Shown: in pieces, positions 51,399 through 58,307 of the stretch
How the letters are laid out: every line of letters starts with the position of its first letter
Position numbering within the stretch: the stretch's first letter is position 1
Assembly: GCA_903851305.1 (NCBI GenBank)
Contig: CAINNX010000029.1
Location: 1 to 64,000 of the forward strand
Length of the DNA stretch: 64,000 bases
Direction of reading: 5' to 3'
DNA from: an uncultured Hyphomicrobiales bacterium
Lineage (GTDB): Bacteria > Pseudomonadota > Alphaproteobacteria > Rhizobiales > Beijerinckiaceae
Program-made: the position numbers and the translations under genes
Notes under the pieces: model-generated
The model's input: only the letters and a program-made list of their open reading frames with translations
Database searches by the model: none
Told to the model about the DNA's origin: nothing

Positions 51399-51607
51399 GA
51401 TTATCTGGTAGCGGGCGTGAGATGATTTGTCACCTCTCCCGCAACGCCATTTTACGAATTAACGAATCGTAACAGATCGTTGGATATTTCGTAGGGATGT
51501 TTCTGGTTTGGTGTCGGCCTCCCCTTGCGGAACCTCGACCGTTCTTATGCGTTCCTTTAATGTTTCCTGCGATTGTAGTTTGTTTTTTAATTGATTGACG
51601 GAATTTG

Positions 51608-52126
51608 ATGGTGTTTCGACAAGCCGCATTGGGGCAAAGGTTAGGTGCGTTCTGTCGCGCCGGATCTGGCGCTGTTTTTGTCGAATTTTCACTCGCGCTT
51701 TGGCCTTTATTGGCGACGCTTCTGTTTGTCTATGACACGGGCGCGAATTTCCTGACATTTCGTCAGGTTGACCTGGCGGGTGCAGCTCTCATCGAAAAAA
51801 TGCGCAGCGGACAAATTGATCCACGCAATTACACCCAAGCCTCGTTTCGCCAGTCCTTATTGTGTCCGGCCGTCACCATTGTTGCTTGCGATCAGTTCGT
51901 GGTCCATTTGTCGGATGCGCAGACCGGCCCCAAGTTGACGCCCACGCAGGTCTCTGGTGCGCAATGGTGTCCAGGTGGACCATCGGATGCGCGCATCCTG
52001 CAGATTGCATTCCCTGTGCCGTTTTTGTCGCGCATTTGGGCCGGCGCGCTTGTTGATGCGCATGTGTATTACGTGTCGGCTTTTGGATTGCGTAATCGTC
52101 CCGATGTTGCTGTGGGGGCGTGCTGA
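51608..52126 (+). CDS. TadE-like pseudopilin
   Basis: 172 residues from the ATG at 51608. The N-terminal basic part is followed by GSGAVFVEFSLALWPLLATL, with E26 five residues after G21 and a membrane helix. This is the TadE signature, where a prepilin peptidase would cut before or within the AVFVEF block. The C-terminal part is extracytoplasmic and carries four cysteines. TadE proteins are minor pilins of Flp/Tad pili or related surface systems. The next gene begins one base after its stop. Confidence 0.8.
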   Translation: MVFRQAALGQRLGAFCRAGSGAVFVEFSLALWPLLATLLFVYDTGANFLTFRQVDLAGAALIEKMRSGQIDPRNYTQASFRQSLLCPAVTIVACDQFVVHLSDAQTGPKLTPTQVSGAQWCPGGPSDARILQIAFPVPFLSRIWAGALVDAHVYYVSAFGLRNRPDVAVGAC

Positions 52127-52127
52127 C

Positions 52128-52802
52128 ATGCGTGCCTTATTCGCCAGATTTCGTGCAGACATGTCAGGCCTGACGTTGATTGAATCGACCTTCTTCATGT
52201 TGCTTCTCATCGCCTTGATGGTAACGGGCACGGAGGTGCAGCGTTATTTTCGTCTGGCGCGTCATATGTCTGCGGGTGGTGAGAGTCTGGCTGATCTGAT
52301 GGGCCAGCGCCGCGCACCAATGCGTGATTTTAACTGGAGCGAAGATACATCCTCTCTGGTTTGGCTTGTGCCTGAAGTGCAATCGAGCGCGGGCACAGAT
52401 TGGCGCCAGTCTGTTGGTGTGCAAACCACCTATGTGCGTTTTGTGCCAATTGATCCAAATTGCACCAGCAATTGTTTGGCAGATCGGGCGCGTATTTTGT
52501 GGACATGGGACGGCGGTGTTGCAGGGTCGCGGCGTTTGCTCACCGCAGCATCATTCTTGCGCGAATGTGGCGTGGTGCTTTTGCCGGGTGGTGATGGAGC
52601 TGCGCGCGACACTTTGCCCGTAGCGCTGTTTACGGGTCAAGATTTGCTCATCGTAACATTGGTGTATCGCTTCCAGCCGCGCGTATTGAATTCTTTATTT
52701 ACGGCAAAAACCCTTCTGACGCAGGCCTATCTTGCCGTGCCGACCGACAGGCTCACAATTGATCCGTTGGGGATCGCCAATGAGGTCGCGCCATGTCCTT
52801 GA
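52128..52802 (+). CDS. Pilin-like (TadE/TadF-type) protein
   Basis: 224 residues from the ATG at 52128. After a short basic leader comes SGLTLIESTFFMLLLIALMV: G14 followed by LTLIE, with E19 at +5, which fits a prepilin cleavage and assembly site unusually well. The rest is extracytoplasmic, with cysteines in NCTSNC and near residue 150. It is only loosely similar to TadE/TadF. It overlaps the following TadG-like gene by 10 bases, so the three genes form one coupled operon. Confidence 0.72.
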   Translation: MRALFARFRADMSGLTLIESTFFMLLLIALMVTGTEVQRYFRLARHMSAGGESLADLMGQRRAPMRDFNWSEDTSSLVWLVPEVQSSAGTDWRQSVGVQTTYVRFVPIDPNCTSNCLADRARILWTWDGGVAGSRRLLTAASFLRECGVVLLPGGDGAARDTLPVALFTGQDLLIVTLVYRFQPRVLNSLFTAKTLLTQAYLAVPTDRLTIDPLGIANEVAPCP

Positions 52803-54760
52803 AAGTGCTGGCGCACGCAGTTCAGGATTTTCGGGCGCGGCCTTATGGCAATGCGATTTTGATCGCGCTCGCTATCTTGCTGCCGATCATGTTGCTGACA
52901 GGCGCGGCCCTTGATTACGGCATGGCCTGGCAGGCACGCCGCAAGCTGGATGTGGCTGCGCAATCAGCAGCGGCGGCTGCAGTCGCGCAAAGCCGCGCCT
53001 TGCGGGCTATTTTTCCTGATGTGCCGCTGGAAGACATGATGGAAAAAGGCCGCGGATGCGCCGATATGGTGTTCAATGCGCAAAAGCCCAATGTGCAAAA
53101 TGTGCGCACGAATTTCCGGCTTGAGCGGACCAGTGAGCGCAGCACATATTTGGCCAGTGTTGAATATGACGCCTTGTTGCCGAGCGTCTTTATGCGTCTC
53201 GTTGGCCTTCGCGAACTCAGTTTGCGGGGGCGCGCCACGGCGCTCTGGGTTGCGCGTGATGCGCTACTTGATGATGATTTCAGCGATTATGAAGCCGAGG
53301 TGCGCGCAGGTGGCACCAAAGCTTTTGCGCCCCTGAATGGTTGGGTATCAGGATTGCGACTGCGTCCGGGCGGGTCACCCGTCATGCCATTATCGGCGGC
53401 TGATCGTTATCCGGGCGCGCCGCCGCCAACTGGCGTTGTCGTGGCCCTTGAGCTCGACACAGGCATCGATAGCGGATTTATCGCCAAAAAGTTTTCGGCT
53501 GATCCCGGTTTGCATCAGGTGCGCTACTGGTATCGCGATCAGGCACGCAATGAAACGCTGGCGCCAGCATGGCTGTGTGGCGCGCGCGAAGAGGACGTGA
53601 TGTGGATGACCACACGCGACCGGAGTCTGGCAGGAAACACCAATCGCATGTCGGTGCATTTGGTACTCGATGAAGGTGGCAGGCCACCTTCGAATGATCT
53701 TGGCTTTCATGCCGGCAATCGCATTGATGCTTGTTATAGCTCGGGCGGGCGCTGGATAGAGCGCGTCATCAAAGTCGATATTGCCACGCGTGGCGATTAT
53801 TGGATCGCCTTCAGGCCCGAGGGGAAAGTTGATTCCCTTGGGCCCTTGATCGCCAATATTTTGGTGTGCCGCGAGCCTTGTGCACGCGACAATGGTGAGC
53901 CACGCCCAGCCCCGTCCAGCAATTTTCCGTGGCGCACGGATGAGGTTTTGTTCGAGGATCGTTTCACATCAGTGAGCGAGAATCCGATCGCCAATTCCCC
54001 GCCCGCTGGCGCGAGTGGCTGGGATTATCTGCCACCCGGTTGGACGGTTTGGCCTCAAAATCAGGTTGGTTATGTCGCGGGGAAAAGTGGCGCCTCCGGC
54101 TATGCCGAGCTTGATGTGCGCACGCCAAGTGGCAGTTATGAAAATCGCGCCATGGCGCGTTCCTTCATGCTCGTGCCAGGCTTCTATCAATTGCGCTATC
54201 AATACAGCACAGGCGCTAATCAGGTAGCGGCCGCCGCTTGCAATTATTTCAGCGTGGAGGGCGCTTTGCAGCGCGTGCCACGCCAGCGTGGCGCTGATTC
54301 ACGACGCGTGTCCGTCCATGTCGATGCTGATTTAGCCTCATTGCATCCCGAGCTGTCCGGGCGTTCGGCCGAAGAGAGGGCCAGCTGGTACACGCCTGAT
54401 CGCATGCCGGAGCGCGACGCCAGGCTGGAGCGACTGGTGCGTCTGCCCAGTCTCGCCAATGCGGTGGATTTCTGCATCGATGCCCCGGCGGGGGCGCCGA
54501 TCTCGCGTGAAGTCATGTTCAAGGTGGAGCGCCCCGGCTTGTATTGGATCACCTTTGTCGGGGGTGGAGCGGCGGATGGGGATGGTGGCCGGGTTTCCGC
54601 GGTTCAGCTGATTGCCAAAGGGGTGGTTCCGGGTGGGGCTGCCTTGCCGCGTGTGGTGCGTGGTTTTGATCGCAATGACCCCATAAATCCCCCAATGGGC
54701 TCTTGGGTGGCGGTGCCGGCCGCAGCTGGTAGCAGGGCGCCCTATAAGGTTCAGCTCTAA
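52793..54760 (+). CDS. TadG-like membrane-anchored protein with two copies of an unrecognised domain
   Basis: 655 residues. Residues 17-70 are TadG/TadE-like: RPYGNAILIALAILLPIMLL, then DYGMAWQARRKLDVAAQSAA. After a short segment, residues 157-362 and 385-608 are tandem copies of one domain. Paired stretches are DDDFSD/FEDRFTS, GLHQVRYWYRD/GFYQLRYQYS, RMSVHLVLDE/RVSVHVDADL, IDACYSS/VDFCIDA and KVDIATRGDYWIAF/KVERPGLYWITF. They look like beta-sandwich modules, possibly ligand-binding, but I know no family. The vWA domain of some TadG proteins is absent. Expected location: inner membrane or pilus tip, outside the cytoplasm. Confidence 0.8.
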   Translation: MSLKVLAHAVQDFRARPYGNAILIALAILLPIMLLTGAALDYGMAWQARRKLDVAAQSAAAAAVAQSRALRAIFPDVPLEDMMEKGRGCADMVFNAQKPNVQNVRTNFRLERTSERSTYLASVEYDALLPSVFMRLVGLRELSLRGRATALWVARDALLDDDFSDYEAEVRAGGTKAFAPLNGWVSGLRLRPGGSPVMPLSAADRYPGAPPPTGVVVALELDTGIDSGFIAKKFSADPGLHQVRYWYRDQARNETLAPAWLCGAREEDVMWMTTRDRSLAGNTNRMSVHLVLDEGGRPPSNDLGFHAGNRIDACYSSGGRWIERVIKVDIATRGDYWIAFRPEGKVDSLGPLIANILVCREPCARDNGEPRPAPSSNFPWRTDEVLFEDRFTSVSENPIANSPPAGASGWDYLPPGWTVWPQNQVGYVAGKSGASGYAELDVRTPSGSYENRAMARSFMLVPGFYQLRYQYSTGANQVAAAACNYFSVEGALQRVPRQRGADSRRVSVHVDADLASLHPELSGRSAEERASWYTPDRMPERDARLERLVRLPSLANAVDFCIDAPAGAPISREVMFKVERPGLYWITFVGGGAADGDGGRVSAVQLIAKGVVPGGAALPRVVRGFDRNDPINPPMGSWVAVPAAAGSRAPYKVQL

Positions 54761-54935: not shown

Positions 54936-54980
54936 GTGCGCCGAGATAGCCTCGGGCGTGCCAGCGAGACAAGACGAACC

Positions 54981-57900
54981 ATGCCGAAGCGGACAGACAT
55001 CAAGACCATCCTCATCGTCGGCGCGGGCCCGATCGTCATCGGACAGGCTTGCGAATTCGACTATTCGGGCACACAGGCCTGCAAGGCCCTTCGCGAGGAG
55101 GGCTATCGCATTGTGCTGGTCAATTCGAACCCGGCCACGATCATGACCGATCCTGACATGGCCGACCGCACTTATGTCGAGCCGATCACGCCCGAGATTG
55201 TTGCCAAGATCATCGAGAAGGAACGCTATGCGGTCCCCGGTGGCTTTGCACTGCTGCCCACCATGGGCGGCCAGACGGCGCTCAATTGCGCGCTCTCGCT
55301 CAAGAAAATGGGCGTGCTGGAAAAATTCGACGTCGAGATGATTGGCGCAACGGCTGAGGCCATCGACAAGGCGGAAGACCGCGAATTGTTCCGCGATGCC
55401 ATGACCAAGATTGGTCTCGACACGCCGCGCTCGCATCAGATCAAGACGCTCGCGCAAGCGCTCGATATCCTTGATGACATTGGTCTGCCCGCGATCATTC
55501 GCCCGTCCTTCACCATGGGCGGCACGGGCGGCGGCATAGCCTATAACAAGGCTGAATATATCGAGATCATCGAGCGTGGCATTGATGCCTCGCCGACGAA
55601 TGAAGTTCTGGTTGAGGAAAGCGTCCTTGGCTGGAAGGAATATGAAATGGAAGTTGTCCGCGACAAGGCGGACAATTGCATCATCGTCTGCTCGATTGAA
55701 AACATCGATCCGATGGGCGTTCACACGGGCGACTCGATCACGGTCGCACCAGCCCTGACGCTGACGGACAAAGAATATCAGATCATGCGCGATGCCTCGC
55801 TCGCCGTGCTGCGCGAAATTGGCGTGGAAACGGGCGGCTCGAATGTGCAGTTCGCGGTCAATCCCGAAAACGGCCGCATGATCGTCATTGAAATGAATCC
55901 GCGCGTGTCGCGCTCATCGGCCCTCGCCTCGAAGGCAACCGGTTTCCCGATTGCCAAAGTCGCCGCGAAACTGGCTGTTGGCTATACGCTCGATGAAATC
56001 GCCAATGACATTACGGGTGGCGCAACGCCGGCTTCGTTTGAGCCGACAATCGATTACGTCGTCACCAAAATCCCGCGCTTTGCTTTTGAAAAATTCCCCG
56101 GTGCTGAGCCCACGCTGACAACGGCCATGAAGTCGGTTGGCGAATCCATGGCGATTGGCCGCACGTTTGCGGAATCCCTGCAGAAGGCGCTGCGCTCGCT
56201 TGAGACGGGTCTGTCGGGTGTTGATGAAGCCGAGATTGAAGGTCTGGGTCTGGGCGATGATCGTGCAGCCATCCGCTCCGCACTTGGCAAGCCGACGCCA
56301 GATCGTTTGCTCGTTGTCGCGCAGGCACTTCGCTACGGCATGGCTCACGACGAGATCTATGAAGCCTGCAAGATTGATCATTGGTTTATTGATCGCCTGC
56401 AGGAAATTGTGGACCTTGAAAACAAGGTGAAGGCGTTTGGTCTGCCCGATGATGCGGTTAATTTCCGCATGTTGAAGGCTGCTGGTTTCTCGGATGTGCG
56501 CCTCAGTTCGCTGGCGGGCCTGACGGAAGCACAAGTGAGTGCGAAGCGCACGGGCCTGAATGTGCATCCGGTCTACAAGCGCATCGACACATGCGCGGCG
56601 GAATTCGCCTCGCCCACAGCTTATATGTATTCCACTTATGAAACAACGTTTGCTGGCGCGGAGCCCGTGTGCGAGGCCCAGCCGACCAATCGCGAAAAGA
56701 TTGTCATTCTGGGTGGCGGGCCAAATCGCATCGGGCAGGGCATTGAGTTTGACTATTGCTGCTGCCACGCCTGCTTTGCTCTGTCGGACGCGGGCTATGA
56801 AACCATCATGGTCAATTGCAATCCCGAAACCGTCTCGACCGATTACGACACATCGGATCGCCTTTATTTCGAGCCGTTGACGCAGGAGGATGTGCTCGAA
56901 ATTCTGCGCAAAGAAAAGATGAATGGCACGCTGAAGGGTGTGATCGTTCAGTTTGGTGGGCAAACGCCGCTGAAGCTGGCCCATAGCCTCGAACAGGCTG
57001 GCATTCCGATACTGGGCACCAGCGTCGACTCGATTGATCTGGCCGAAGATCGTGATCGCTTCAAGCGCCTGCTCGACAAGGTTGGTCTGAAGCAGCCCAA
57101 GAATGGCATTGCCTATTCCGTTGAGCAGTCGCGTTTGATTGCGGCTGAGCTTGGTCTGCCGCTCGTCGTGCGCCCCTCTTATGTGCTGGGTGGTCGCGCG
57201 ATGGCGATCATTCGTGACGAGGCTGCGTTTGATGATTATCTCTTGGGCACGCTGCCGGGCCTCGTGCCGGCAGAAGTGAAATCGCGCTATCCCAACGACA
57301 AGACGGGGCAGATCAACACGGTGCTGGGCAAAAACCCGCTGCTGTTTGATCGCTATTTGTCGGATGCGGTGGAAGTCGACGTCGACTGCCTGTGCGATGG
57401 CAAGGATGTCTTCGTTGCGGGCATTATGGAGCATATCGAAGAAGCGGGCATTCACTCCGGTGACTCGGCCTGCTCGCTGCCGCCGCGCTCTTTGTCGCCC
57501 GAAGTCATCAAGACACTCGAAGAGCAGACTGCGAAACTCGCGCTAGCGCTCAATGTTGGTGGCCTGATGAACGTCCAATATGCGCTGAAGGACGGCGAGA
57601 TCTATGTGCTCGAAGTCAATCCGCGCGCCTCGCGCACGGTGCCGTTCGTCGCCAAGGTGATTGGTGAGCCGATTGCCAAGATTGCCTCGCGCATCATGGC
57701 AGGCGAGTCGCTGGCGAGCTTTGGCCTGAAGAAGACCGAGCTGCAGCATGTTGGCGTCAAGGAAGCCGTCTTCCCCTTCGCCCGCTTCCCCGGTGTCGAC
57801 ACGGTGCTGGGCCCAGAAATGCGCTCGACGGGCGAAGTCATCGGCCTTGATCGCTCGTTCGAAGTGGCCTTTGCCAAGAGCCAGCTCGGCGGCGGCACGA

Positions 57901-58307
57901 AAGTGCCGACCTCTGGCACGGTCTTCGTGTCGGTTCGCGATGCGGACAAGCCGCGTGTTCTCTCGACCATGAAAATGCTGGCCCAGGAGGGCTTCAAGAT
58001 CGTGGCGACCGGGGGCACCCAACGCTTCCTGGAGGCCGAGGGCGTCGCGTCCGAGAAGATCAACAAAGTGTCAGAAGGCCGCCCGCATGTGGTCGATGCC
58101 ATCAAAAATGGCTCAATCCAGTTGGTTTTCAATACGACAGAGGGGGCGCAGGCGTTGGCTGACAGCCGGTCACTCCGCCGTTCGGCCCTCTTGCATAAGG
58201 TGCCTTACTACACCACTCTAGCAGGGTCGATTGCGGCGGCGCAGGGGATCAAAGCCTATAAGGGCGGTGATCTTGAGGTTCGCGCCCTGCAAGATTATTT
58301 CAACTGA
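54981..58307 (+). CDS. carB: Carbamoyl-phosphate synthase large subunit
   Basis: 1108 residues from the ATG at 54981 ([20 protein letters not shown]). Two homologous ATP-grasp halves are clear, with [17 protein letters not shown] in the first and [17 protein letters not shown] in the second. The second half has [12 protein letters not shown] and [18 protein letters not shown]-terminal MGS-like domain ([31 protein letters not shown]) binds allosteric effectors. The protein makes carbamoyl phosphate for pyrimidines and arginine. carA is not in this window. Confidence 0.97.

Follow-up and report, generated by a model that had tools for sequence, protein, structure and literature searches.

The window, a 64,000-nucleotide stretch of DNA from the draft genome of a freshwater bacterium of the Hyphomicrobiales, carries on its forward strand three nearly gapless minor pilin genes that form a compact tadE-tadF-tadG operon away from the main tad cluster, between trmL-hemF-gtrA and carB-greA, in a neighbourhood that is kept in many relatives. 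The first gene (51605..52126, with an alternative ATG start at 51608) encodes a TadE-like protein of 173 aa in which a prepilin-type segment, G↓AVFVE, is followed by a hydrophobic stretch, and orthologs with 28-48% identity are found at the equivalent place in relatives. The second gene (52128..52802; 224 aa from the ATG at 52128) is TadF-like, overlaps the start of tadG by 10 bases, and encodes a prepilin motif (G↓LTLIE) plus a hydrophobic stretch; its orthologs lie between TadE and TadG in relatives. Neither protein gives a significant Pfam match, and these genes, named by position and prepilin motif and not by profile, are probably the expected TadE and TadF partners of the third. A full set of Tad core genes is encoded elsewhere in the genome, with TadA, two T2SSF platform proteins, a secretin, RcpC and a prepilin peptidase on one contig (C171) and two Flp pilins on another (C109).

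The third gene (52793..54760), delineated from its open reading frame, Pfam and orthologs, encodes a TadG-type minor pilin of 655 aa. An initial sequence-only reading had called this protein TadG-like, and we find that the assignment holds: PF13400 (Tad) matches residues 19-65 (52847..52987) as an N-terminal anchor and pilin helix, with 32.9 bits against a cut-off of 22.3 and an E-value of 8.4e-8, a large C-terminal part follows, and tadE and tadF partners and a Tad core are present. The open reading frame is a real gene, since the genus holds intact, full-length orthologs with 95, 64, 63, 50 and 49% identity, along with divergent ones at 31-34%; the named carriers are recorded as Beijerinckiaceae/Hyphomicrobiales metagenome-assembled genomes. 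It is the sole TadG protein, and the sole PF13400 protein, detected in the genome, where "sole" means one detected in a draft of 186 contigs. The prepilin peptidase motif G/A-X4-E/F, present in both upstream proteins, is absent from the TadG N-terminus and its processing is thus uncertain, but the motif is no established requirement for TadG and the TadG-type assignment is kept.

The C-terminal part beyond the anchor, some 590 residues, is extracytoplasmic and holds two folded domains. Residues 66-153 (52988..53251) would form a pilin-like module or stalk, recognised by family-wide conservation, with an estimated boundary and a fold assigned by analogy to CpaL (PMC12607857). Two jelly-roll domains, each delimited by profile-profile alignment with the other, AlphaFold (AF2) models and fold matches, occupy about residues 154-366 (copy 1; 53252..53890), with invariant cysteines at 262, 314, 359 and 363, and about residues 381-610 (copy 2; 53933..54622), with cysteines at 483 and 561. 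The remaining residues, 611-655 (54623..54757), make up a proline-rich, variable tail that is poorly conserved beyond close orthologs; all these features lie on the forward strand. Searches of Pfam, NCBIfam and PHROGs return no family besides PF13400 above cut-off, and Pfam gives no VWA match that would indicate a vWA domain with a MIDAS motif; both C-terminal domains model as jelly-rolls.

The sequence-only reading had proposed a tandem duplication pairing residues 157-362 with 385-608, and the coordinates are consistent, residue 157 corresponding to 53261 and residue 608 ending at 54616. Compared directly, the window copies share only about 25% identity over 223 columns (BLASTP E 4e-5), a level that could be read as chance resemblance between two unrelated beta-rich domains, the duplication then being only apparent. 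Family profiles built from 21 copy-1 sequences (A2) and 18 copy-2 sequences (A3), however, align in hhalign over 193 columns with probability 99.9, an E-value of 7.6e-34 and a score of 221.7, whereas the best of 200 column shuffles scores 24.1, the reversed profile 17.3, and the profile of an unrelated extracytoplasmic TadF, used as a control, 15-16. In almost every ortholog the profile of each copy also picks up its partner copy, and both copies give identical fold matches (see below). Chance resemblance, which is refuted at the sequence-profile level, keeps a negligible probability. The two domains are tandem homologous copies and the internal duplication is confirmed: the repeat is significant in the profile self-comparison by which it was to be judged, and the four motif pairs picked out from the sequence are all in register in the hhalign alignment.

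AlphaFold models of the copies, each predicted alone, have pLDDT values of 86.5 (copy 1) and 83.0 (copy 2) and a pTM of 0.87 in both cases; both are mostly beta, with a like strand order. Foldseek and VIA-align match both copies to CBM4, CBM16, CBM22, Porphyromonas Kgp cleaved-adhesin, MAM and Eph ligand-binding domains, with top Z-scores of 11.7 (copy 1) and 11.0 (copy 2). Among these matches are the CBM4 chain 2y64_A (Z 11.7, rmsd 3.3 over 152 residues), the CBM16 structure 2zew (Z 11.4 and 10.9), and residues 1425-1602 of 3m1h_C, matched by copy 1 at Z 11.5 and by copy 2 at Z 11.0; the copies align to identical chain ranges also in 4itc (982-1153) and in the MAM structure 8yt7 (from 137), the latter with Z 10.8 for each; these common ranges are indirect evidence that the two predicted halves superpose. 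As modelled, both copies are beta jelly-rolls of the galactose-binding-like/CBM/MAM/Kgp cleaved-adhesin type, and since Z-scores for the CBM, MAM, Eph and cleaved-adhesin classes are tied within about 1, the fold speaks for a binding-type jelly-roll and not for a particular ligand. The beta-rich extracytoplasmic modules anticipated from the sequence are thus borne out by separate models, and their description as an unrecognised domain is right insofar as no Pfam cut-off is reached, but not for the fold, which is well known, nor for the profiles, which link to DUF642-type proteins. Direct homology to a PDB sequence was sought and rejected, with zero matches up to E 10 for each copy's profile and a single, insignificant match (E 2.1) for the full-length protein.

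When approximately 400 genomes of the order and approximately 400 of the phylum were searched with the copy-1 profile, the matches fell into three types. Some proteins are Tad-anchored and have one copy or two, others are small, secreted and PEP-CTERM-like, and a few are encoded by very large open reading frames of 1700-6300 aa. Distant domain copies lie within two of these large frames, of approximately 3700 aa (L107, genome G439) and 6260 aa (L108, genome G678), which are possibly giant surface proteins. The profile of the small secreted group (A4) matches copy 1 with an E-value of 2e-18 and copy 2 with 2.3e-9, scores far above those of 150 shuffles, and one distant relative of this secreted kind (L092) is a DUF642 member above cut-off (34.4 vs 27), the only such case. 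This profile link indicates that the jelly-roll module is a diverged relative of DUF642 and no new fold. Neither the window protein nor either copy reaches the Pfam gathering score for DUF642 (PF04862), which makes them relatives and not members; the window copies share with DUF642 and PEP-CTERM DUF642-type secreted proteins the profile NGSFE...GIE.Q...VELDSH...Y.L.F.Y.PR...GGLIDNVSL, and differ from them in having long inserted loops, extra cysteines and a pilin anchor. In plants, proteins of the DUF642 family interact with polysaccharides of the cell wall (PMC9029284). The MAM family (PF00629) has no Pfam match in the window copies and weak matches in 4 of the 21 copy-1 sequences (best E 0.00044); the sequence L064 scores 13.3 against a gathering score of 26.4, and MAM membership is rejected at that score.

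Bosea and related genera encode TadG-type proteins, approximately 380-450 aa long, in which a single homolog of copy 1 follows a Tad-type anchor. These relatives (L067, L068, L069, L099, L101 and L102, from Bosea and further Beijerinckiaceae) share with the window protein the anchor and a C..C end motif but have one domain where the window protein has two. In another Rhizobiales family (f52), one genome encodes two-domain versions at two loci (L096 and L097). A domain tree of 54 rows, with the PEP-CTERM group as its root, unites every second copy, those of f52 included (100/99), and separates all tandem copies from the Bosea-type single-domain forms (98/82); a long-branch sequence (L104) falls with the tandem copies, and support is weak for the exact placing of this sequence and of the f52 copy 1. 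The simplest reading of the tree is one ancient duplication, which would predate the split of the genus from the f52 family, and horizontal transfer between the two lineages may be considered beside it. A recent duplication confined to the window genome is ruled out by the orthologs and the domain tree, and independent duplications in the genus and in f52 are unsupported, given the common grouping of the second copies, with the f52 first copies taking no resolved position relative to those of the genus.

The head is not uniform within the genus. Six members (L034 to L039) keep copy 1 and have a C-terminal region of approximately 250 aa that is weakly copy-2-like and may be either a strongly diverged copy 2 or a replaced domain, and other members have Tad-anchored proteins with vWA domains (L028, PF00092 at 1.1e-8). 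By hand count in these draft genomes, presence of a jelly-roll TadG is not linked to that of RcpC, which is found in 19 of the 24 carriers and 20 of the 27 non-carriers.

The supposition that known TadG proteins have either a vWA domain or hardly anything after the anchor proves too narrow. Models and genetics place TadE-TadF-TadG complexes at the tips of Tad pili, with TadG as a backbone bearing a variable C-terminal modular domain (PMC12075869), and the Caulobacter crescentus TadG ortholog CpaL, modelled at the pilus tip, has a vWA head with two extra inserted beta-barrels (PMC12607857). The window protein resembles CpaL in its N-terminal Tad/pilin-like module, large C-terminal head and predicted tip position, and its two upstream genes are comparable to the CpaL partner minor pilins CpaJ and CpaK (PMC12607857); it differs in that the CpaL head consists of one vWA with a MIDAS and two six-stranded beta-barrels, whereas the window head has two tandem jelly-rolls and no vWA match, and in that a potential prepilin peptidase site is reported for CpaL. 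The KilN/TadG tip complexes of Myxococcus and other bacteria likewise combine a TadE-TadF-TadG trio with a TadG backbone and C-terminal modular domain, and their tip genes may also sit apart from the tad core; the KilN4 head, however, is described as dissimilar to known structures (PMC12075869), whereas the window head is a recognisable, duplicated jelly-roll. S. sanguinis PilB and PilC are similar in being minor pilins with grafted tip adhesion domains, vWA and lectin (PMC12075869, PMC6916266), but belong to a type IVa pilus, use a ConA-like lectin fold and are described without a tandem duplication. Variable modular domains on TadG tips are therefore already published, and what is new here is the duplicated jelly-roll head, a modest variation.

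These findings are best accounted for by a TadEFG pilus-tip complex whose TadG presents two ligand-binding jelly-rolls that are probably glycan-binding, a reading to which we assign a probability of roughly two in three (0.66). To our knowledge, Tad pili are widespread and the ligands of their tips largely unknown. By analogy to the characterised systems, the location of TadG at the pilus tip is very likely and an adhesive function of its jelly-rolls is probable, while carbohydrate as the ligand, at slightly less than even odds, is put forward tentatively. Carbohydrate is favoured over other ligands on the ground that polysaccharides are bound by CBMs and DUF642 proteins, but jelly-rolls also bind proteins, as in MAM and Eph domains, and fill purely structural roles, and so the fold is by itself no proof of glycan binding. 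A tip protein that binds protein and not glycan, in a MAM- or Eph-like manner, with a surface protein of a partner or of its own kind (aggregation) as the ligand, would fit the MAM and Eph matches, which are about as good as those to CBMs, and the weak MAM hits among copy-1 sequences; we consider it a serious but less likely alternative, as the tied Z-scores do not discriminate among fold classes and the best sequence-profile link is to DUF642-type proteins. Still less probable are domains that are mainly structural, acting as a rigid spacer or as a tip cap for priming or secretin passage without ligand binding. Here the conserved core motifs in the copy alignments (YxLRYxY, YWxTF and ID.C) are mostly fold-defining, some relatives are single-domain or have a second region unrecognisable as copy 2, and deletion of the TadG-type protein lowers piliation in Caulobacter (PMC12607857), all as a structural role would have it, but the vWA domains that stand in place of jelly-rolls in other genus members fit a swap of exchangeable binding heads better.

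In a ligand-binding tip complex of this kind, the window TadG would act as a minor pilin of the host's single detected Tad pilus, its pilin helix packing against TadE and TadF to form a pilus-priming tip complex. The two tandem jelly-rolls would protrude from the end of the pilus and attach to a ligand outside the cell, most likely a polysaccharide of a particle, of an algal or other cell surface, or of the cell's own matrix; two domains in series could provide avidity or two specificities, and retraction of the pilus would pull the cell toward the gripped object. A more far-reaching proposal, which we regard as doubtful, is that in a Rhizobiales lineage made up of the genus and one or more other families an anciently duplicated CBM-type pair replaces the vWA head of other species in the genus, its copies specialised for different ligands so as to form a bivalent or two-specificity, glycan-reading tip that selects the surfaces on which these freshwater bacteria settle. 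The TadG family described here offers a concrete Tad head with a recognisable binding-type fold, known in single-domain and two-domain forms and alongside vWA-bearing alternatives within one genus, and thereby makes tip specificity testable through isolated domains.

The minor pilin trio (51605-54760) is approximately 28-31% identical to that of genus members whose carB (54936-58307 in the window) is 81-91% identical, and these comparisons indicate that the trio evolves unusually fast. Faster evolution of the jelly-rolls than of the anchor was sought as a sign of tip diversification and is not seen; all three minor pilins diverge fast, the anchor as much as the domains, and there is thus no sign of selection on a binding face. 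The layout of the locus also varies among relatives. At the conserved locus of one genome (G001, L047:8957-9767) all that is left is a 116-aa fragment matching the C-terminal end of TadG and a TadE remnant of 95 aa, and the trio appears largely deleted; Tad-anchored proteins persist elsewhere in that genome. Two others (G014, L042:2701-3450; G025, L043:4858-5486) have TadG with no TadE or TadF detectable in the gap of approximately 250-290 bases between gtrA and TadG, and RcpC is undetected in both genomes. In a fourth (G018, L032:4588-8142), TadE and TadF are divergent from TadG in transcription and there is no single operon. A fifth (G023, L031:2442-7761, the same locus as L059) has one TadE-TadF pair with a full-length, two-domain TadG paralog on either side; the two paralogs may serve a single pilus as alternative tips.
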